NCBI GenBank assembly: GCA_021789975.1
Contig: JAJYIT010000004.1
Location: 124,001 to 188,000 of the forward strand
Origin: Bacteroidota bacterium
GTDB taxonomy: Bacteria; Bacteroidota; Ignavibacteria; Kryptoniales; JAKASW01
DNA: 64,000 nucleotides
Reading direction: 5' to 3'
Under the pieces are notes generated by a model that worked only from the letters and a program-made list of their open reading frames with translations, searched no databases and was not told where the DNA came from. Shown piece by piece: positions 10,589-20,397 of this stretch. A program made the translations under genes and the position numbers. The stretch's first letter is position 1. Each line of letters begins with the position of its first letter.

Positions 10589-11464
10589 ATTAAATCAACA
10601 GAAACTTCCGAGATTACTCACATCTCGCATACCGCCCTTTGGGCAGCCTATTACCGCGCGATTGAGACGAAACGAAAAGATGCACTGTTCCATGATCCCT
10701 TTGCAGAGACTCTTGCCGGTGAGCGCGGCAGGCACATCGTTGAGAATACAAAAGGGTGGAAGAACGGTGCCTGGTCGATGATCGTGAGGACGGCGATCAT
10801 GGATGAATTCATTACGAGGACGATTATCCAGGACAACGTCGATACCATCGTCAACCTTGCTGCCGGTCTCGATACGCGCCCGTATCAACTCGAACTTCCT
10901 TCTTCGCTCCGATGGATCGAAGTAGATCTCCCGGATATTTTGGATTACAAGGAGAGCAAACTCACTGGTTTTAGTCCGAACTGTAGATTGGAGCGCAAGA
11001 AAGTTGACCTGGTCGAGATAGCGGCACGCAAGAAATTATTCGAGCAGATCAACCTCGCGGCGAGACGTGCACTTGTGATAACGGAGGGCTTGCTCCTCTA
11101 TCTTAGCGGCGAAGATGTTGCCTCGCTTGCAGAAGACCTGCATTCCCGGGAGAATTTTCGCTGGTGGACTCTTGATATCGCAACACCTGCACTTCTCGGA
11201 TGGCTGCTCAATAATTCTTTTAGACGATTTGCCGAAGGAGACATTCAGATGAAATTTGCTCCCGAGGGTGGTCCGAGCCTCTTCATGCAATTCGGCTGGG
11301 ATGCGGCAGAATCTCGTCTGGTGTCGAAGGAGTCCAGGAGACTCAAAAGGGAAATGCCGGGGATGTGGTTCTACCGGCTCCTCGCTACGGTTGCTCCACG
11401 AAAGCAGCGCGAGGTATTTGTCAAGATGGATTCACATTTCGTATTGCTTAAGAAAAGGACTTGA
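10589..11464 (+). CDS. Class I SAM methyltransferase (leucine carboxyl methyltransferase-like), non-canonical start
   Basis: Homology to the PPM1/LCMT-like family extends well upstream of the first in-frame ATG at 10778: HTALWAAYYRAIETKRKDAL, then FHDPFAETLAGERG. These are conserved N-terminal features, followed by NLAAGLDTRPYQL (SAM loop), WIEVDLPDIL and RALVITEGLLLYL. The frame is open from a TAA just upstream, but between that stop and the homology there is no ATG, GTG or TTG. An ATT at 10589-10591 followed by AAA TCA is the natural position for a start and would give 291 residues. Either an ATT start is used, the start was lost by mutation, or a sequence error is present. The target molecule is unknown. 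Confidence 0.75.
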   Translation: MKSTETSEITHISHTALWAAYYRAIETKRKDALFHDPFAETLAGERGRHIVENTKGWKNGAWSMIVRTAIMDEFITRTIIQDNVDTIVNLAAGLDTRPYQLELPSSLRWIEVDLPDILDYKESKLTGFSPNCRLERKKVDLVEIAARKKLFEQINLAARRALVITEGLLLYLSGEDVASLAEDLHSRENFRWWTLDIATPALLGWLLNNSFRRFAEGDIQMKFAPEGGPSLFMQFGWDAAESRLVSKESRRLKREMPGMWFYRLLATVAPRKQREVFVKMDSHFVLLKKRT

Positions 11465-11504
11465 CAAACACGTACCTCGTTTGTTATTATAACATATCAG
11501 ACAT
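11461..11504 (+). promoter_or_regulatory. Promoter and operator-like motif of the GntR regulator gene
   Basis: TTGACA at 11461-11466 and TATTAT at 11485-11490, 18 bases apart, form a sigma-70-type promoter. The -10 lies inside 11482-11504, whose reverse complement (ATGTCTGATATG, TTATAATAACA) closely matches 12282-12306 ahead of the TonB receptor. ACAAAC/GTTTGT arms also flank the spacer. The layout suggests autorepression. Confidence 0.6.
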
Positions 11505-11510
11505 CTTACA

Positions 11511-12260
11511 ATGAGCGAACGAGCCACATTTTCGACAATTGGGAATCGCGAACTTCTTAGCAAAACAGTAGCTTCGAAGATTGAAGACGCGATCCACGCG
11601 CGGACGTTCAAGAATGGCGACAGGTTGCCCGCGGAGCTGGAGCTAGCCGCACAATTCGATGTAAGCAGAACCGTTGTCAGGGAGGCGCTCAGGATGTTGA
11701 GCGGACGCGGAATAATCGTCATTAAGAAAGGCAAGGGGGGTTTCGTTAACGGCTTTTCGGCAGAAAGCGTCATCGAGCCGCTCCACTCCTATCTCAGATT
11801 TTCGATTCCGAAAGATTATGCTCTTGACGTCATCCGTGCTCGCCAGGTGATTGAGCCTGCGATTGCCTATGTGGCAGCGTTGAATCACACGAAGGAAGAC
11901 GCGACACAACTGCAAAGAGATTGGGACGAGTTGAAGAGTTGTCGCGAGGACGATTATGACGCCCTTGCGAAGCTGGACCTCAGGTTTCACCTTGATATTG
12001 CAAAGTCAACCCATAACGTCATCATCCCGCTGATGATAGAGCCGATCCACCGACTGATGCCTGCCATCAAAGTGTCGGTGTATAAGGAAGTCGAAGACTC
12101 GAAGAACTCGGCCCTGGATAAGCACGGCAAGGTGCTCTCAGCGATCCTGAAGTACGATGCGGAGGGGGCGAGGCGAGCAATGACCGTCCACCTGAAAGTA
12201 GCTGAAGAGCATGTTCTCCTGACGATGAAATCGGAATCGGCGGAAGCAGTGAAAAAGTGA
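11511..12260 (+). CDS. GntR/FadR-type (FCD) transcriptional regulator
   Basis: A 249-residue regulator. Residues about 15-85 form a GntR winged helix (GDRLPAELELAAQFDVSRTV, then VREALRMLSGRGII and a GKGGFV wing). Residues about 100-235 form an all-helical FCD ligand-binding domain with the usual metal-site pattern (DLRFHLDIA; LDKHGKVLSAI; MTVHLKVAE). FCD-GntR proteins often sense sugar acids or carboxylates. Its place directly ahead of a TonB receptor, a beta-helix protein and kduI/kduD suggests that it responds to an unsaturated-uronate or 2-keto-3-deoxygluconate-type intermediate. The start is the ATG at 11511. Confidence 0.9.
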   Translation: MSERATFSTIGNRELLSKTVASKIEDAIHARTFKNGDRLPAELELAAQFDVSRTVVREALRMLSGRGIIVIKKGKGGFVNGFSAESVIEPLHSYLRFSIPKDYALDVIRARQVIEPAIAYVAALNHTKEDATQLQRDWDELKSCREDDYDALAKLDLRFHLDIAKSTHNVIIPLMIEPIHRLMPAIKVSVYKEVEDSKNSALDKHGKVLSAILKYDAEGARRAMTVHLKVAEEHVLLTMKSESAEAVKK

Positions 12261-12281
12261 AATTAATTCTCTTACATAAAC

Positions 12282-12306
12282 ATGTATGATATGTGATATA
12301 ATAACT
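12282..12306 (+). promoter_or_regulatory. Operator-like motif over the TonB-receptor promoter
   Basis: ATGTATGATATGT followed by GATATAATAACT matches the inverted motif at 11482-11504 with one substitution and a 2-base insertion. It contains a perfect TATAAT (12297-12302), so a bound regulator would cover the -10 of the receptor gene. The -35 is poor (TTACAT, 19-base spacer). Confidence 0.6.
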
Positions 12307-12337
12307 CACTCATAATACAAATTGTCAGAGGGCTATA

Positions 12338-15300
12338 ATGAAAGTGTTTCGACCGATCATGGCCACCGTGCTCATCTTTTCAATACCCGATGTTATCCGA
12401 GCCCAATGCAACATCCGCGGGTACGTCACGGATTCCCTGAATATCAGCCCGCTCGTTGGAGCAAATGTTTTTCTCATCGGGACGGCATTTGGTGCAAGCA
12501 CAGATGTTAACGGGCAATATCTGATAGACAACATTCCTCCCGGCAACTATCAGGTCCGGGTGTCTTACATCGGTTACGAAACAAAGCTTCTGGAGATCAT
12601 TGCATCGAAGGGAGGTTCGACAAACGTGAACGTTCCACTTTCGCCGCAGGCAGTTCAGGGAAAGGAAGTAGTCGTCATGGCACAAATGAAGGGCCAGCTC
12701 GCCGCAATCAACCAGCAATTGGGATCGCACAAAATCGTCAGCGTGGTATCGAGAGAGAAGATACAGGAGTTGCCCGACGCAAATGCCGCCGAAGCAATCG
12801 GACGGCTGCCGGGCGTTTCCGTAATACGGAGCGGGGGCGAGGCTAACAAAGTAATCTTGCGGGGCATGGATGAAAGATTCACTAACATTACGATCGACGG
12901 AGTCCAGATCCCTTCTACGGACTCGACGAATCGATCTGTCGACCTTAGTACCATATCGCAGAGTTCACTCTCAGGCATAGAACTCTACAAGTCGCTTACT
13001 CCCGACATGGACGGAGATGCAATCGCGGGGAGTATAAACCTGGTGACCAAAAAGGCCCCTTCGGAGAGATTCATAAGACTGGATCTCAGCGGAGATTATA
13101 ATGAGCTGATGAACTCTGCAAAGCAGTATAATGCCGCGTTGCGATACGGAGAGAGATTCTTCAAAGACTTCGTGGGAGTTCAGTTAATCGGGAATCTCGA
13201 AAACAGGATAAGGAGTAGTGAGGATATTAACCTCAACTACAACCAGGGATTGAATAATCAGACCGACTACGCAATAAGCGACTTCCTTCTGACTTTCAAT
13301 AATGAGGTAAGGAAGCGTAATGGTCTTACGGCGTTGCTGGACGTCTCCACACCTGATGAGGGCGTCATCAGGTTGAACACCGTCTACAGTGGAACGAAGA
13401 GGGACATTTTCACATCAGCCAGAGACTATCCTACCAGCAGCGGCAGCGCAACCTCTGGTGGAGCAAGCGTTACCTACTCGGCACATGATCAAACAGAGAA
13501 TATAAACACTTTGAGCAGTGCTCTTTTGGGAGACAACAGTATATTGGGATTCTCTCTAGACTGGGGTGCCTCTTTTGCCCAGTCTCTTTCGGACTTTCCA
13601 TACGATTATTTGGCCGGCTTCCTCGAGAAGTCGTCAATGAACGTAACCGGAACGGATACAGTCTACACGGGTGGTATGCTGCCCACTCCAACGATCAAGA
13701 CAAACCCTGAGCAGTTGACGCCTTACGCTCTCAACGACTTCAAGGACGCAACTTTGTATGATGCTTTCTACTACAACAAGAGAATTTATGACAAGCAGAG
13801 AGTAGCTTACCTGAACATTTCGAGGGGATACACTCTCAGCAATTGGCTGTCGGGAGAGTTGAAGTTCGGCGGAAAGTACAGAATCCAAGACAAGAACAAC
13901 CTCCAGGGACGCACGTATGCTCCATATTATCTTGGAGATTGGAGGCCCTACCAGTATGCCGCGGATGGCACCATGCAGAAGAAAGACCTGAGTGGAACCT
14001 ATTTCAACGATTTCTACCAGAGCTACCTCCAATCTTCGGCAAACATATATCCCGGATTCACCGACTTCCTCGATTCATCCCCCGTTTCCAGGGACATATT
14101 TGGGCTTTACAAATTGAATCCGATCATGAACAGAGGCAGGTTGGAGCAATGGTACAGCCTCAATAGAAACGGGATCGATAGGAGTGGAAAGCAACCGGAG
14201 AATTGGAATGACCCTACCGCGATCGCATACAATTACTCGATAACGGAAAGGACATCCGCAGGATACGCGATGAATACTCTGAATGTCGGTACCGCACTGA
14301 CATTCGTGCTTGGCGTTCGGGTTGAAAATGAAAACAACGACTATTCCAACAAGTACTCGACGCAGCAGTTTGGCGGCTTCCCGGTTCCGCAGGATGCCTT
14401 TAAAGACATCAGAGATACGGCAGCTACGCATGACGAAACGGTGTGGATGCCGCACTTCAGCCTGAACTACAGGAGGACCGATTTCTTGAACGTCCGGGTT
14501 GCAGCATACAGAGCACTCGCGCGACCTGACTTCATTTACCGCCTGAACACTCGCTTCCCGTGGAGAGACATTCTTTCTACCGGCACAAAGCAGGTCTTCC
14601 TTGGGAATCCCACTTTGAAAGACGCAAAAGCATGGAACTACGAAGTGAATCTCTCACTCTTCGGAGACAAGATAGGGCTCTTCACGGTTTCAGCATTCTA
14701 CAAGGAAATTGCAGACATGTTCCATATGCTCAACCAGATGGGTACTAGCGGGGATAGTCTGATTAGGTATGTAGGCCTGGGTTGGAGCAGTCTGCAGACC
14801 GGTAATTACTCACTGACTGTTCCTTACACTTCCGACAAGCCGACGAAAGTCTGGGGATTCGAACTTGAGCACCAGATAAACTTTTCCTTTCTCCCGGGCC
14901 TATTACAGAACGTCGTCTTATCGTACAACGCATCAATGGTTCGTTCCGAGACTCACACGATTGGCTGCACCACAGACACGTCGTACTATTACATCGGCGG
15001 CATCCCATTCCCTCAATATACTTTGCGCGTAATAGATCAAAAGCAGCAATTGGAGAACCAACCGGAATTCTACGGAAATATTGCTCTCGGGTATGATGTC
15101 GGCGGGTTCTCCGGGAGAGTCTCGCTTTTTCATCAGTCTCAGTACAATGTTTCTTTCAGTCCCAGCGGTAGAGGAGACATAGTTGCCAATGCTTTTACTA
15201 GGATTGATCTGGCATTCAGGCAAAGAGTCACTCCGTTTCTTTCACTTACACTGAACGTAAACAATCTGACGAATACCAGGGAGGGCAACTCCCTATACGA

Positions 15301-15382
15301 TCGAGTCAACAATTACAAAATACTGAGTACGAATGAAAGATACGGAATCACCGGTGACTTCGGGTTGATCCTTGAACTATGA
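12338..15382 (+). CDS. TonB-dependent receptor with CarboxypepD_reg-like N-terminus
   Basis: A 1014-residue outer-membrane transporter. After a signal peptide (residues 1-22) comes a carboxypeptidase-regulatory-like beta-sandwich (YVTDSLNISPLVGANVFLIG, DVNGQYLIDNIPPGNYQVRV). A plug domain follows (ELPDANAAEAIGRLPGVSVI, VILRGMDERFTNITIDGVQI, GSINLVTKKAPS), then a barrel ending in an aromatic C-terminal strand (GITGDFGLILEL). It should import a ligand bound outside the cell using ExbB/ExbD/TonB energy. The neighbours suggest a pectin-derived oligosaccharide. There is no SusD partner beside it, so it is not a classic SusC/D pair. The start is the ATG at 12338. Confidence 0.92.
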   Translation: MKVFRPIMATVLIFSIPDVIRAQCNIRGYVTDSLNISPLVGANVFLIGTAFGASTDVNGQYLIDNIPPGNYQVRVSYIGYETKLLEIIASKGGSTNVNVPLSPQAVQGKEVVVMAQMKGQLAAINQQLGSHKIVSVVSREKIQELPDANAAEAIGRLPGVSVIRSGGEANKVILRGMDERFTNITIDGVQIPSTDSTNRSVDLSTISQSSLSGIELYKSLTPDMDGDAIAGSINLVTKKAPSERFIRLDLSGDYNELMNSAKQYNAALRYGERFFKDFVGVQLIGNLENRIRSSEDINLNYNQGLNNQTDYAISDFLLTFNNEVRKRNGLTALLDVSTPDEGVIRLNTVYSGTKRDIFTSARDYPTSSGSATSGGASVTYSAHDQTENINTLSSALLGDNSILGFSLDWGASFAQSLSDFPYDYLAGFLEKSSMNVTGTDTVYTGGMLPTPTIKTNPEQLTPYALNDFKDATLYDAFYYNKRIYDKQRVAYLNISRGYTLSNWLSGELKFGGKYRIQDKNNLQGRTYAPYYLGDWRPYQYAADGTMQKKDLSGTYFNDFYQSYLQSSANIYPGFTDFLDSSPVSRDIFGLYKLNPIMNRGRLEQWYSLNRNGIDRSGKQPENWNDPTAIAYNYSITERTSAGYAMNTLNVGTALTFVLGVRVENENNDYSNKYSTQQFGGFPVPQDAFKDIRDTAATHDETVWMPHFSLNYRRTDFLNVRVAAYRALARPDFIYRLNTRFPWRDILSTGTKQVFLGNPTLKDAKAWNYEVNLSLFGDKIGLFTVSAFYKEIADMFHMLNQMGTSGDSLIRYVGLGWSSLQTGNYSLTVPYTSDKPTKVWGFELEHQINFSFLPGLLQNVVLSYNASMVRSETHTIGCTTDTSYYYIGGIPFPQYTLRVIDQKQQLENQPEFYGNIALGYDVGGFSGRVSLFHQSQYNVSFSPSGRGDIVANAFTRIDLAFRQRVTPFLSLTLNVNNLTNTREGNSLYDRVNNYKILSTNERYGITGDFGLILEL

Positions 15383-15510: not shown

Positions 15511-17184
15511 ATGAATCACAAGATGTACAAAGCACTGGCAGTGGCAGTTGTGTTACTTGTGGCCAAAGCATCTTTCGGGCAGGAAAATCGTTTGGTACTG
15601 AATCCGTATGATGGATCCCCTGGTTCAATGTTGATGGCGCAAATCAAAGCTGACACTACGGCGAATCATGGAATCCCATCAAACCGTGTCTACGTGCTGA
15701 AGCGGGGAGGTTTGTATCTATGTACGGAGGTGTTCAATGTACCCAATGGAAGCACGATGAACTTGCGCGCCGATTATGGTGCAGGCAAGAAACCGATAAT
15801 TTATTTGTATCCGACAGGTACCGGCGCCAATCCTCAACGACCTCCCGGAAATATGTTCGTGTTATTGGGATCGAATCTGATCATGAGAAATATTGCTGTT
15901 GCGGGGTACTTCGAGCCGCTCGACACTAATCTCAACAATGTCCAGGGCGGGTTAGTCAACACGACCCAGCCGGGATCCTCCATAATTATTGACAGTTGTA
16001 TTCTCACCAATATCAATGGACAACACTTAAGAACAGGCGCCGCATCTATCAAAGTGGAAGTTACCAACTCTATATTCGCAAACATGGGTGCGTTGAGTAC
16101 CTCCAATCTTGGGGCGGGCAAGGGCCTGGATTTGCGAGAGGTATCTTGCGATTCCCTAATATTGAAAAACAATACCTTTGTTAATTATCAGGACAGAGTT
16201 GTGCGACACTACAATTATTCCAGCCCAGGATCAGGAACTGGTGCGTTGGCCGTTGCTATCATTGACCACAATACCTTTCTGAACGGAATGGGATTTCACG
16301 GTCTCCTTTCTCTCGGTAGTGTCGGTTCAAAGGTCATGATAACGAACAATCTATTCATGGATGCGTTTGCATGCGGTGAAGACACGGGGGATGCTACAAG
16401 GTCAGCCGAATGGGCGAACACCAGCGAGCAGTATCAAAACGGGAACTACAGGATGTCGTGGATTTTCACGACTCCCAATGATACAACTCAATGGGACATC
16501 TCGAACAATTATTACGGCATTTCTGACTCGGGGCAGGCGTATCTCGACGATTTCAACCTGACCGAGGATACGCCGCTTTCATGGCATATCAACGCAAGAG
16601 TTGGCATAGACTCCACAACCGCCTTTAAGAAAGTGTGGCTTAAACTCGCAAATACTCCGCGATTGATGACGAACGAAATGCGGTGGTACCGCGACCCAAA
16701 CGGTGGGAATATGACAAAGAACACCCCGACTTCAAAGTGGCAATGGCCCAGCGACGACATGGATAGGAGAGTCTACAAGTATTACGAGGACACTTTGAAT
16801 TGTTCTTATAATGCTGATCAGGATCTGTCGAAAGCGGGAAGTGATGGAAAGATTATAGGCGCTACTAACTGGACCTTTATGGGGGTGGTTGCGGTCAACG
16901 AGCGTCCGCGTGAGCTTCCCTCCAGCTTCTACCTGACCCAGAACTATCCAAATCCGTTCAACCCGACAACTGGGATAGGCTACTCCGTCCCCAAGGCTAG
17001 CCATGTTACTCTTGAGGTGTACAACGTCCTTGGTGAAAGAGTAGCAACATTGTTTTCTGGAGTTCGTCAGCCTGGTAATTATGTGGCGAATTTCAATGGA
17101 AGCAAGGTTGCCAGCGGAGTCTATTTCTACCGCCTGCAGGCAGGCAATGTGTCTATCACAAAGAAGTTGATGCTGGTTAAATAA
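15511..17184 (+). CDS. Secreted beta-helix protein with type IX sorting domain
   Basis: A 557-residue exported protein with a signal peptide at residues 1-23 (cleaved after FGQ or nearby). The middle has a repetitive right-handed parallel beta-helix pattern of the pectate-lyase-like kind (SIIIDSCILTNINGQHLRTG, SLILKNNTFVNYQDRVV, KVMITNNLFMDAF), resembling DUF4957/DUF5123-type proteins of pectin loci. The last 80 residues form a Por secretion sorting domain (YPNPFNPTTGIGYSVP, LEVYNVLGERVATL, SGVYFYRLQAG, KKLMLVK). It is probably exported by the type IX system to the surface to bind or cleave pectic polymer; catalytic residues were not identified. RBS AAGGAG; start ATG 15511. Confidence 0.85.
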   Translation: MNHKMYKALAVAVVLLVAKASFGQENRLVLNPYDGSPGSMLMAQIKADTTANHGIPSNRVYVLKRGGLYLCTEVFNVPNGSTMNLRADYGAGKKPIIYLYPTGTGANPQRPPGNMFVLLGSNLIMRNIAVAGYFEPLDTNLNNVQGGLVNTTQPGSSIIIDSCILTNINGQHLRTGAASIKVEVTNSIFANMGALSTSNLGAGKGLDLREVSCDSLILKNNTFVNYQDRVVRHYNYSSPGSGTGALAVAIIDHNTFLNGMGFHGLLSLGSVGSKVMITNNLFMDAFACGEDTGDATRSAEWANTSEQYQNGNYRMSWIFTTPNDTTQWDISNNYYGISDSGQAYLDDFNLTEDTPLSWHINARVGIDSTTAFKKVWLKLANTPRLMTNEMRWYRDPNGGNMTKNTPTSKWQWPSDDMDRRVYKYYEDTLNCSYNADQDLSKAGSDGKIIGATNWTFMGVVAVNERPRELPSSFYLTQNYPNPFNPTTGIGYSVPKASHVTLEVYNVLGERVATLFSGVRQPGNYVANFNGSKVASGVYFYRLQAGNVSITKKLMLVK

Positions 17185-17356: not shown

Positions 17357-18190
17357 ATGGAGGTACGATATCTTCCTGATCGAAGGAGTTTCAAGAAGCT
17401 AAATACCGACGAAATCAGAAATGCTTTTCTTGTTGACGGTCTGTTTCAGGACGGCTGCATCAAAACGGTTTATGTCGATCTTGACAGGGCTATTGTCGGT
17501 GGAGCTGTACCGTCAAACGAGAGACTCAGCCTTCTGGCGAGCAGGAAAGAATTGTCGTCCGACTACTTTACCGAGCGGAGAGAGATCGGAATCTTCAACG
17601 TAGGAGGACAGGGGACAGTAGAAGCTGATGAAAAGGGATTTAAGGTGGCATTCAAAGATGCCGTCTACCTCGGCAAGGGCACAAGAAGAATCTCGTTCTC
17701 AAGCGACGATCCTGCCAATCCGGGACATTTCTTTTTTGTCAGCTTTCCGGCCCACTCCGCCCACCCGGCGATGTTGATGAAATTTGGAGAAGCTAATTCT
17801 TCCCGACTAGGCGCGATGCAAAGCGCAAATATGAGAACCGTAAGAAAATACATTCATAACGACGGCGTGAAGAGCTCCCAGCTTGTCATGGGTCTTACAG
17901 ACCTGGACGAAGGCAGCGTGTGGAACACGATGCCTCCCCACACACATCAGCGAAGGACAGAAATATATTTTTACTTCGGCCTTGGGAATGGGGAAGTTGT
18001 TTTCCATATGATGGGCGAGCCGAGTGACACAAGGCACCTTGTCGTAAGCGATAAGCAGGCTGTCGTCTCCCCGAGTTGGTCGATTCATAGCGGCACAGGA
18101 ACGAAGAACTATTCGTTCATATGGGCAATGGGCGGCGAGAATCAGGATTTCGATGACGTGGAAGCAGTCGGTGTGGAAGATCTGAAGTGA
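17357..18190 (+). CDS. kduI: 5-keto-4-deoxyuronate isomerase
   Basis: A cupin-fold KduI of 277 residues, the normal family length. It interconverts 5-keto-4-deoxyuronate and 2,5-diketo-3-deoxygluconate in the cytoplasmic pathway from unsaturated galacturonate. The metal-binding cupin signature is present (MPPHTHQRRTEIYFYF, His-x-His and Glu), with a later His in SPSWSIHSGTG; ends GGENQDFDDVE as in the family. The start ATG 17357 has a GAGAGG site. It lies 49 bases upstream of kduD, giving two consecutive steps of one pathway. The 172 bases before it contain dispersed GTGGCGGT/ACCGCCAC complementary arms but no clear terminator. Confidence 0.95.
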   Translation: MEVRYLPDRRSFKKLNTDEIRNAFLVDGLFQDGCIKTVYVDLDRAIVGGAVPSNERLSLLASRKELSSDYFTERREIGIFNVGGQGTVEADEKGFKVAFKDAVYLGKGTRRISFSSDDPANPGHFFFVSFPAHSAHPAMLMKFGEANSSRLGAMQSANMRTVRKYIHNDGVKSSQLVMGLTDLDEGSVWNTMPPHTHQRRTEIYFYFGLGNGEVVFHMMGEPSDTRHLVVSDKQAVVSPSWSIHSGTGTKNYSFIWAMGGENQDFDDVEAVGVEDLK

Positions 18191-18239: not shown

Positions 18240-19001
18240 ATGGTACTTGAGAAGTTCAGGCTGGACAACAAAGTGGCAATTGTAACTGGTTCAAACCAGG
18301 GGATAGGATTGGCATACGCAGTAGCCTTGGCAGAAGCTGGTGCGGATATCGTCAGCGTCTCCAACGTAGAACATTTTGAGCAAGTGAAAAGGGAAATTGG
18401 CAAACGCGGCAGGAATTTCAAATCTTACACTAGCGATTTCTCCAATCGTGCTTCTCTATATGAGTTTATAGGGCGAGTAAGAAAAGACTTTCCGAAGATT
18501 GATATACTTGTCAATAATGCGGGAATGATTCTGCGTAGGCCGATCTCTGAACATCCCGACGAGTACTGGGACAAAGTCATCGAAGTAAATCTGACTTCGC
18601 AGTTTGTATTAACTCGCGAAATTGGCAAGGAAATGGCGGCAAGAGGATGCGGCAAGATAGTCTTCGTCGCATCTCTGCTGGCATTTCAGGGGGGGATCCT
18701 TGTTCCGGGATACTCTGCCTCTAAAGGCGGCGTAAAACAGTTGACCATGGCATTTGCGAACGAGTGGGCCTCGAAAGGTGTGAACGTCAATGCGATTGCC
18801 CCGGGTTATATCGCTACCGACAACACTAAGGCGTTGCGCGAGGATGGAGCCAGGAGTAAAGCCATACTCGATAGAATACCCGCAGGAAGGTGGGGAACTC
18901 CTGAAGATATGATGGGAGCAATTGTTTTCCTCTGCTCGGACGCTTCAAGTTATCTGAATGGAAGTGTGATCACTGTCGACGGCGGCTGGATGGGAAGGTG
19001 A
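18240..19001 (+). CDS. kduD: 2-deoxy-D-gluconate 3-dehydrogenase (KduD-type SDR)
   Basis: A 253-residue short-chain dehydrogenase that reduces 2,5-diketo-3-deoxygluconate to 2-keto-3-deoxygluconate with NAD(P)H. Visible motifs: TGSNQGIGLAYAVALAEAG (cofactor glycines), LVNNAGM, a catalytic Ser about 12 residues before the YSASKGG Tyr/Lys pair, and the C-terminal SSYLNGSVITVDGGW. Assignment to KduD rests mainly on the adjacent kduI; many SDRs look alike. The start ATG 18240 follows AAGGGG. Confidence 0.9.
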   Translation: MVLEKFRLDNKVAIVTGSNQGIGLAYAVALAEAGADIVSVSNVEHFEQVKREIGKRGRNFKSYTSDFSNRASLYEFIGRVRKDFPKIDILVNNAGMILRRPISEHPDEYWDKVIEVNLTSQFVLTREIGKEMAARGCGKIVFVASLLAFQGGILVPGYSASKGGVKQLTMAFANEWASKGVNVNAIAPGYIATDNTKALREDGARSKAILDRIPAGRWGTPEDMMGAIVFLCSDASSYLNGSVITVDGGWMGR

Positions 19002-19119: not shown

Positions 19120-20397
19120 ATGAAACGATTTATTGAGGCAGCACTTCTCATCGCTATCGCTGCATCCTCCTCCGCGATATTTGGGCAATACAGCCGTCAA
19201 GGCACGAATGGAACCGGTTCATTTCTCGTCACTGCTGTAAATCAGATGGATATTTACCGTCCTGATGAAATGATTCGGCTCGATCTGGCCGAGATAGAAG
19301 ACAAATTTCCTTCTTTTAACGCTAAGGGGTTCTTCGTCTCTGAAGACGATCATGAGATACCCAGCCAAATATCTGAAGGCGAGCTTGGGAAATCTTCTGA
19401 GATAATCTTTGTCGCCTCCTTTGCACCGATGGAAACGAAAACACTTCAGATCTCCTGGGAGGACAAAGTTGTCGATGTGCACCATTACCCTCGGATGACA
19501 CAGGCTGCAATGGGAATGAAAGTCGGTTATGAGAAAGTGAACGGATATTACACCGGCGGCAGGTTTGTCGACGTGGATTCGACTACCGTTCCTCATGATC
19601 ACTTTGCTCACGATGCGCTTTACCGAGTTGAGGGACCGGGTTGGGAATCCGGCAAGATCGCTTATAGGTTCTATCTGGACTCGCGAAACAGAAACGACAT
19701 ATTTGGGAAAAAGACTCATGGTTTAGTACTGGAAACAATCGGAGAAAACGATCTCATCTCCGACAGCAGGGAATCGTACACGAAGATGCTTGATTGGGGG
19801 ATGGACATTTTCAAGGTCGGTGAATCTCTCGGCATAGGCTCAATTGCGATGTGGCACGACTCCCAAGCGGCGACGGTGGGCGATGTGGCAAAAGTCGAAT
19901 GCTCAGTATTCAACGGGCCGATTCGATCAGGCGTCTTTACGAAATACCTGGGCTGGAAAACCGGCGGAAAGGAGTACAACCTCGTCACAGATTTGTCCAT
20001 TTCAGCTGGGAGTAGATTAACAAAAGTCTCTGCATCAATAAACAACGACACCGTTCTGCTCTGCACTGGCCTTGCAAAGCACGACTCCTGCGATTTGATG
20101 GGATCTGTTCCCTCAGCAAAGGGTGTATGGAGATATCTTGCATTGTACGGTAAGCAGAGTCTTTCAGGAGACAATCTTGGAATTGCAGTCTTTTACAGGA
20201 AGACGGACATGCTGAAGCTTACACATGATGGTACAAGTCAAATCGTTGTACTGCGACCGACCGATGGACGGCTGACCTACTATTTCGGCGCAGCATGGGA
20301 AGAAGAGCCGGGAGGGATTAAGAGCGAAAAGGAATTCAAGGAATATCTGGAGCGTACAGCATCAGTGCTTGACGATCCGATAGGTGTTTATTTCTGA
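19120..20397 (+). CDS. Exported DUF4861 protein
   Basis: A 425-residue protein with a signal peptide at residues 1-21 (ends SSAIFGQYS). The mature sequence matches DUF4861, a family of periplasmic or secreted proteins that often sits in pectin and alginate loci: VGYEKVNGYYTGGRFVDVDS, PHDHFAHDALYRVEGPGWES, YRFYLDSRNRNDIFGKKTHG. His and Asp/Asn residues in those motifs look like a carbohydrate or metal site, but no reaction has been assigned to my knowledge. The ribosome site is GAGG, 7 bases before ATG 19120. It lies 118 bases after kduD and is probably the last gene of the locus. Confidence 0.8.
   Translation: MKRFIEAALLIAIAASSSAIFGQYSRQGTNGTGSFLVTAVNQMDIYRPDEMIRLDLAEIEDKFPSFNAKGFFVSEDDHEIPSQISEGELGKSSEIIFVASFAPMETKTLQISWEDKVVDVHHYPRMTQAAMGMKVGYEKVNGYYTGGRFVDVDSTTVPHDHFAHDALYRVEGPGWESGKIAYRFYLDSRNRNDIFGKKTHGLVLETIGENDLISDSRESYTKMLDWGMDIFKVGESLGIGSIAMWHDSQAATVGDVAKVECSVFNGPIRSGVFTKYLGWKTGGKEYNLVTDLSISAGSRLTKVSASINNDTVLLCTGLAKHDSCDLMGSVPSAKGVWRYLALYGKQSLSGDNLGIAVFYRKTDMLKLTHDGTSQIVVLRPTDGRLTYYFGAAWEEEPGGIKSEKEFKEYLERTASVLDDPIGVYF

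Follow-up and report, generated by a model that had tools for sequence, protein, structure and literature searches.

Predicted operators of a putative autoregulated FadR-subfamily GntR repressor at a pectin-type polyuronate locus in Bacteroidota

Regulators of the FadR subfamily of GntR proteins bind operators of the consensus NyGTM-N0-1-KACNy, usually with three nucleotides between GT and AC (GT-N3-AC), a spacing common to ExuR, PdhR and LldR. Weaker additional boxes near GntR sites have also been described, and none of the motifs in the table of this 2015 comparative study comes from Bacteroidetes (PMC4494728). AusR of Zobellia galactanivorans is reported to be a GntR repressor of alginate utilisation that binds one, two or three copies of its operator and is released by breakdown products (PMC7874173, PMC8286568). 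UxaR (TM0439) of Thermotoga maritima is a GntR regulator of pectin/galacturonate genes with a conserved 17-nt motif, to which it binds in vitro (PMC3750489). E. coli NanR binds repeated half-sites cooperatively (PMC8012715).

We analysed a 64 kb stretch of DNA (the window) from a Bacteroidota bacterium. The gene gntR (11511..12260, + strand) encodes a regulator of 249 residues with a GntR helix-turn-helix domain (HTH; PF00392, residues 16-79) and an FCD domain (PF07729, residues 106-229), both above cut-off. By these domains the protein is a FadR/FCD-type GntR regulator. It missed every equivalog cut-off of NCBIfam; the best scores were for LldR (144 bits, cut-off 311), NanR (118, cut-off 260), PdhR (114, cut-off 330), UxuR (99, cut-off 442) and ExuR (95, cut-off 396). 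The nearest solved structure by profile was NanR (6on4, 106 bits), and among the solved relatives is 3fms, which we take to be TM0439. The residues D156, H160, H205 and H227, invariant in 12 homologues, presumably form the metal site of the FCD domain, as in other members, and appear consistent with a carboxylate ligand.

The genes that follow are all on the + strand. A gene for a TonB-dependent receptor with a CarbopepD_reg_2 domain (12338..15382) is predicted to head the controlled operon. Next to it lies the gene of a secreted protein with a T9SS sorting tail (15511..17184), which by eye resembles beta-helix polysaccharide lyases and in which no catalytic Pfam domain was found. It is followed by kduI, for 5-dehydro-4-deoxy-D-glucuronate isomerase (17357..18190; NF002091, 391 bits, cut-off 250), a kduD-like SDR dehydrogenase gene (18240..19001; TIGR01832, 318 bits, just below the cut-off of 339) and a gene for a DUF4861 polysaccharide-utilisation protein recognised by domain search (19120..20397). 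Pfam gave no alginate lyase match among the locus genes of the window. As KduI and KduD are present and an alginate lyase was not recognised, the substrate appears to be pectin-type, and the presence of kduI and kduD points to an intermediate of polyuronate breakdown as the likely signal.

Two words that had been matched to each other in the preliminary description, ATGTCTGATATGTTATAATAACA (the reverse complement of 11482-11504) and ATGTATGATATGTGATATAATAACT (12282-12306), are indeed present in the window, and we have redrawn their boundaries to the palindrome alone. The shared unit is an odd palindrome, tSATGTMWKACATSa, of 11-15 bp, with centres at 11499 and 12287. The form ATRTMWKAYAT fits both ATATCAGACAT (operator 1, 11494..11504) and ATGTATGATAT (operator 2, 12282..12292), each of them a near-perfect odd palindrome and hence without strand. 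Past the palindrome, the match of 23-25 bases runs into TTATAATAAC and ATATAATAAC, which are -10-like AT sequences. In genome G005 the second copy is ATGTATGACATGTGATGTAAGACC and the receptor promoter has GATGTAAGACC at the matching positions; the TATAAT part is therefore outside the conserved site. Since the core is palindromic, the opposite orientations first ascribed to the two copies have no meaning for it. An extra half-site, 7 bp on, lies downstream in both promoters, and each site therefore faces its own gene in the same way.

Within the window, the significance of the two-word match is modest. ATRTMWKAYAT occurs twice (expected 0.31; at least two in 2 of 100 shuffles), and a 13-mer with at most one mismatch was common to 8 of 300 randomised pairs of the two promoter regions. 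A chance resemblance of two AT-rich promoters would have these figures in its favour; the case for operators rests on conservation.

At gntR, the consensus scan found a sigma-70-like promoter (11461..11490, + strand; TTGACA, 18 bp, TATTAT). Its TTGACA box is kept in the orthologues, and a TTGACA-like box precedes the site in many homologues. Given this promoter, operator 1 (16.5 bits by matrix score with its flanks, 11492-11506) lies just downstream of the -10 box and covers the expected transcription start. The predicted leader is about 14 nt (11490-11513) and has no evident Shine-Dalgarno sequence. Downstream of operator 1, at a distance of 7 bp from its right half, an extra half-site, TACAA (11507..11511, + strand), reaches into the start codon; its score as a full 7-bp half-site is poor (-2.8 bits).

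At the receptor promoter region, operator 2 scores 15.2 bits with its flanks (12280-12294). A degenerate second palindrome, ATATAATAACT (12296..12306, no strand), lies 14 bp from it, centre to centre, and overlaps TATAAT at 12297-12302; the counterparts of ATATAATAACT score 16.1 bits in G005 and 13.0 bits in L088 and L096. Contrary to the earlier statement that both copies overlap a -10 box, operator 1 begins just after its -10; a convincing -35/-10 pair was found by consensus scan at the gntR copy only, and none was clear for the TonB gene. The receptor has two -10 candidates, 12297-12302 and 12311-12316 (CATAAT nearby), of which the second is conserved in G005. If the second is the real -10, operator 2 would fall around the -35 of that promoter, where an activator or dual regulator could recruit polymerase while repressing gntR from operator 1. 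In line with this, the window and G005 share CTCACTCATAATACAAA downstream of operator 2 but differ in the nearer TATAAT. However, the scan found no promoter pair at CATAAT, and FadR-subfamily sugar-acid regulators are, as a matter of general knowledge, mostly repressors; we regard activation as unlikely. Repression is our preferred reading. Operator 2 is within the promoter region whichever -10 candidate is used.

Among 13 genus/family genomes, gntR orthologues were found in two others, G005 (86% identical) and G011 (77%). In both genomes ATGTCTGACAT precedes gntR and ATGTATGACAT follows it, with the spacing seen in the window. The palindromes at the two places are near-perfect, and ATGTATGACAT, at the place of operator 2, is perfect. 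The contig search returned the G005 locus alone. More widely, 46 of the 391 genomes of the class carry homologues of gntR. A de novo, palindrome-constrained EM search of the upstream regions of 41 homologues recovered tSATGTMWKACATSa with a log-likelihood of 158, compared with 19-21 in three shuffled sets. With the resulting matrix, 31 of the 43 loci scanned had the site ahead of gntR, and in 13 a second copy stood in the promoter of the gene that follows, which often encodes a TonB receptor. As these next-gene promoters were absent from motif training, they constitute an independent check. The density of sites in the loci was 0.79 per kb in non-coding and 0.095 per kb in coding DNA, the genes having been called by a simple longest-ORF routine. 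Outside the class, a strong site follows gntR in four loci (L181, L182, L183 and L189). The palindrome was thus recovered independently and is kept at the same two places across dozens of species; this conservation, upstream of both gntR and the following gene, was what the preliminary description had left to be looked for, and it refutes the chance match of promoters, to which we assign a practically negligible probability.

The gene context of the homologues varies. In L093, gntR stands after KDPG aldolase and PfkB kinase genes and before SDR, PL17-like lyase and MFS genes, and in L078 a heparinase-like lyase gene adjoins the homologue. In genome G067, a single contig carries two gntR copies (L200 and L087) separated by about 4 kb, each with a near-perfect site (20.5 and 20.1 bits). 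A clade of eight homologues (L093, L102, L104, L105, L107, L108, L110 and L113) has the recognition helix SRTS, not SRT[AV], and several of them have gntR after kdgK-type genes. No copy of the motif was found in the fetched flanks of this clade. The motif therefore does not follow every homologue, and the SRTS clade may use a different operator.

We also followed the site through the rest of the genome, which was scanned with patterns and in fetched stretches. A degenerate pattern matched 28 places, compared with 11 for the reversed control, and a 2-mismatch pattern matched 357 forward places, which were read in part. The possibility raised earlier, that the word is scattered at random, was not borne out: besides the two window sites, the exact matches lie almost all in coding sequence, and, being mostly intragenic, they were set aside as operators. 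At the locus with KDPG aldolase and GH88 in the same genome, the only site is weak (12.5 bits) and overlaps a start codon, at which ATG-TCT-GAC encodes Met-Ser-Asp; it was judged to be due to chance. Two other non-coding matches, L022 (15.0 bits) and L150 (15.2 bits), have scores similar to that of operator 2. Therefore, the regulon may extend further, or a high score is not decisive by itself. The genome has only three FCD regulators, and the loci of the other two showed no site.

Non-coding matches that score nearly as high elsewhere would also suit a different owner of the site, namely another regulator common to these promoters. Against this, the site has the GT-N3-AC form of FadR-subfamily operators, it accompanies gntR over many species and families, and it is absent from kduI loci that lack gntR. 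Eight such loci come from genus members in which no gntR orthologue was detected, and in these loci we observed no intergenic site of comparable score. They do carry kduI and a gene like kduD, but the genes of the window for the receptor, the T9SS protein and the DUF4861 protein have no detected homologues there. Regulator, sites and uptake genes thus travel together, and we consider ownership by another regulator very unlikely. Over the genus set (the window genome and G001-G012), kduI occurs in 11 of the 13 genomes and gntR in only three; the receptor, T9SS and DUF4861 genes adjoin kduI only in the gntR-bearing genomes, as an accessory cassette.

In gntR promoters, the palindrome is followed, towards the gene, by a further half-site exactly 7 bp beyond its right half. 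The mean half-site score is 2.4 bits at +7, compared with -6 to -17 bits at other offsets in the same orientation. A score of at least 0 bits is reached at 22 of the 30 gntR sites and at 9 of the 11 sites before the next gene, compared with a background of about 4%. Positions +9 to +11 read A, C and A in 27, 23 and 24 of the 30 gntR sites, respectively. In receptor-type promoters, it is more often a second palindrome, weaker than the first, that follows at 14 bp (G005, L088 and L096). In some gntR promoters (L052 and L072) a tandem ACATCATACATCATACATC gives three or more half-sites in 7-bp steps. We tentatively suggest that the operator could be a ladder of half-sites in 7-bp steps, made up, at gntR, of the palindrome and a third half-site and, at the receptor, of two palindromes that overlap at a 14-bp spacing. 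Dimers that have no NanR-like extension might assemble on it cooperatively, with differing thresholds for gntR and the receptor, as part of a large Bacteroidota polyuronate regulon. This possibility, although doubtful at present, makes a specific prediction about cooperative binding.

The two sites flank the gene of the FadR-subfamily (FCD) GntR regulator and are very probably operators for this protein, which we read as an autoregulated repressor of polyuronate genes. The preliminary description proposed that a single regulator uses one type of site to control both its own gene and the pectin locus. Phylogenetic footprinting supports this proposal, and the predicted regulon would be new in itself and known in kind. 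What we observed are the sites and how they are conserved, their association with the regulator, and the genes present at the locus; from this we infer binding, repression, operon extent and ligand as follows. A dimer would bind tSATGTMWKACATSa at operator 1, on the transcription start, and at operator 2, within the promoter region, and would block RNA polymerase at both; the extra half-sites at 7-bp steps would probably raise occupancy. Autorepression would hold the level of the regulator low. Breakdown of polyuronate would raise a sugar-acid intermediate, most likely one of the KduI/KduD pathway (5-keto-4-deoxyuronate, DKII or KDG). Once the FCD domain takes up this intermediate, the protein would leave the DNA, and the receptor, T9SS protein, kduI, kduD and DUF4861 genes would be expressed. 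The occurrence of KduI and KduD in genus members without this regulator counts against the model.

The FCD regulator group to which the protein belongs is widespread in Bacteroidota and, as far as we found in the literature searched, undescribed. The putative binding motif can be used for this group, and it allows mapping of which polyuronate loci (pectin-type, alginate or heparinase-like) share a sensor.

The site had first been thought to be unlike published operators. However, tSATGTMWKACATSa conforms to NyGTM-N0-1-KACNy, and its GT-N3-AC core fits the FadR-subfamily pattern of E. coli PdhR, ExuR and LldR, which likewise have 3 nt between GT and AC (PMC4494728). The difference lies in the outer positions, which are ATGT/ACAT here and TKGT/ACMA in the common form. 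Repeated half-sites at a fixed spacing, as in NanR, are also found here, but NanR recognises direct GGTATA repeats (PMC8012715), whereas the main site here is a palindrome. In addition, NanR has a 32-residue N-terminal extension for cooperativity, whereas the regulator of the window has only about 15 residues ahead of its HTH, which starts at residue 16. UxaR belongs to another phylum and another regulon but is comparable in role. AusR is likewise compared here by role. Unlike the alginate-linked AusR, the window regulator stands at a locus with KduI and KduD and without a recognised alginate lyase. An AusR-like context is, however, seen around homologues that adjoin PL17-like lyase, KDPG aldolase, PfkB kinase, SDR and MFS genes, and AusR and the regulator of the window appear alike in role, both being GntR proteins of polyuronate systems in Bacteroidota.
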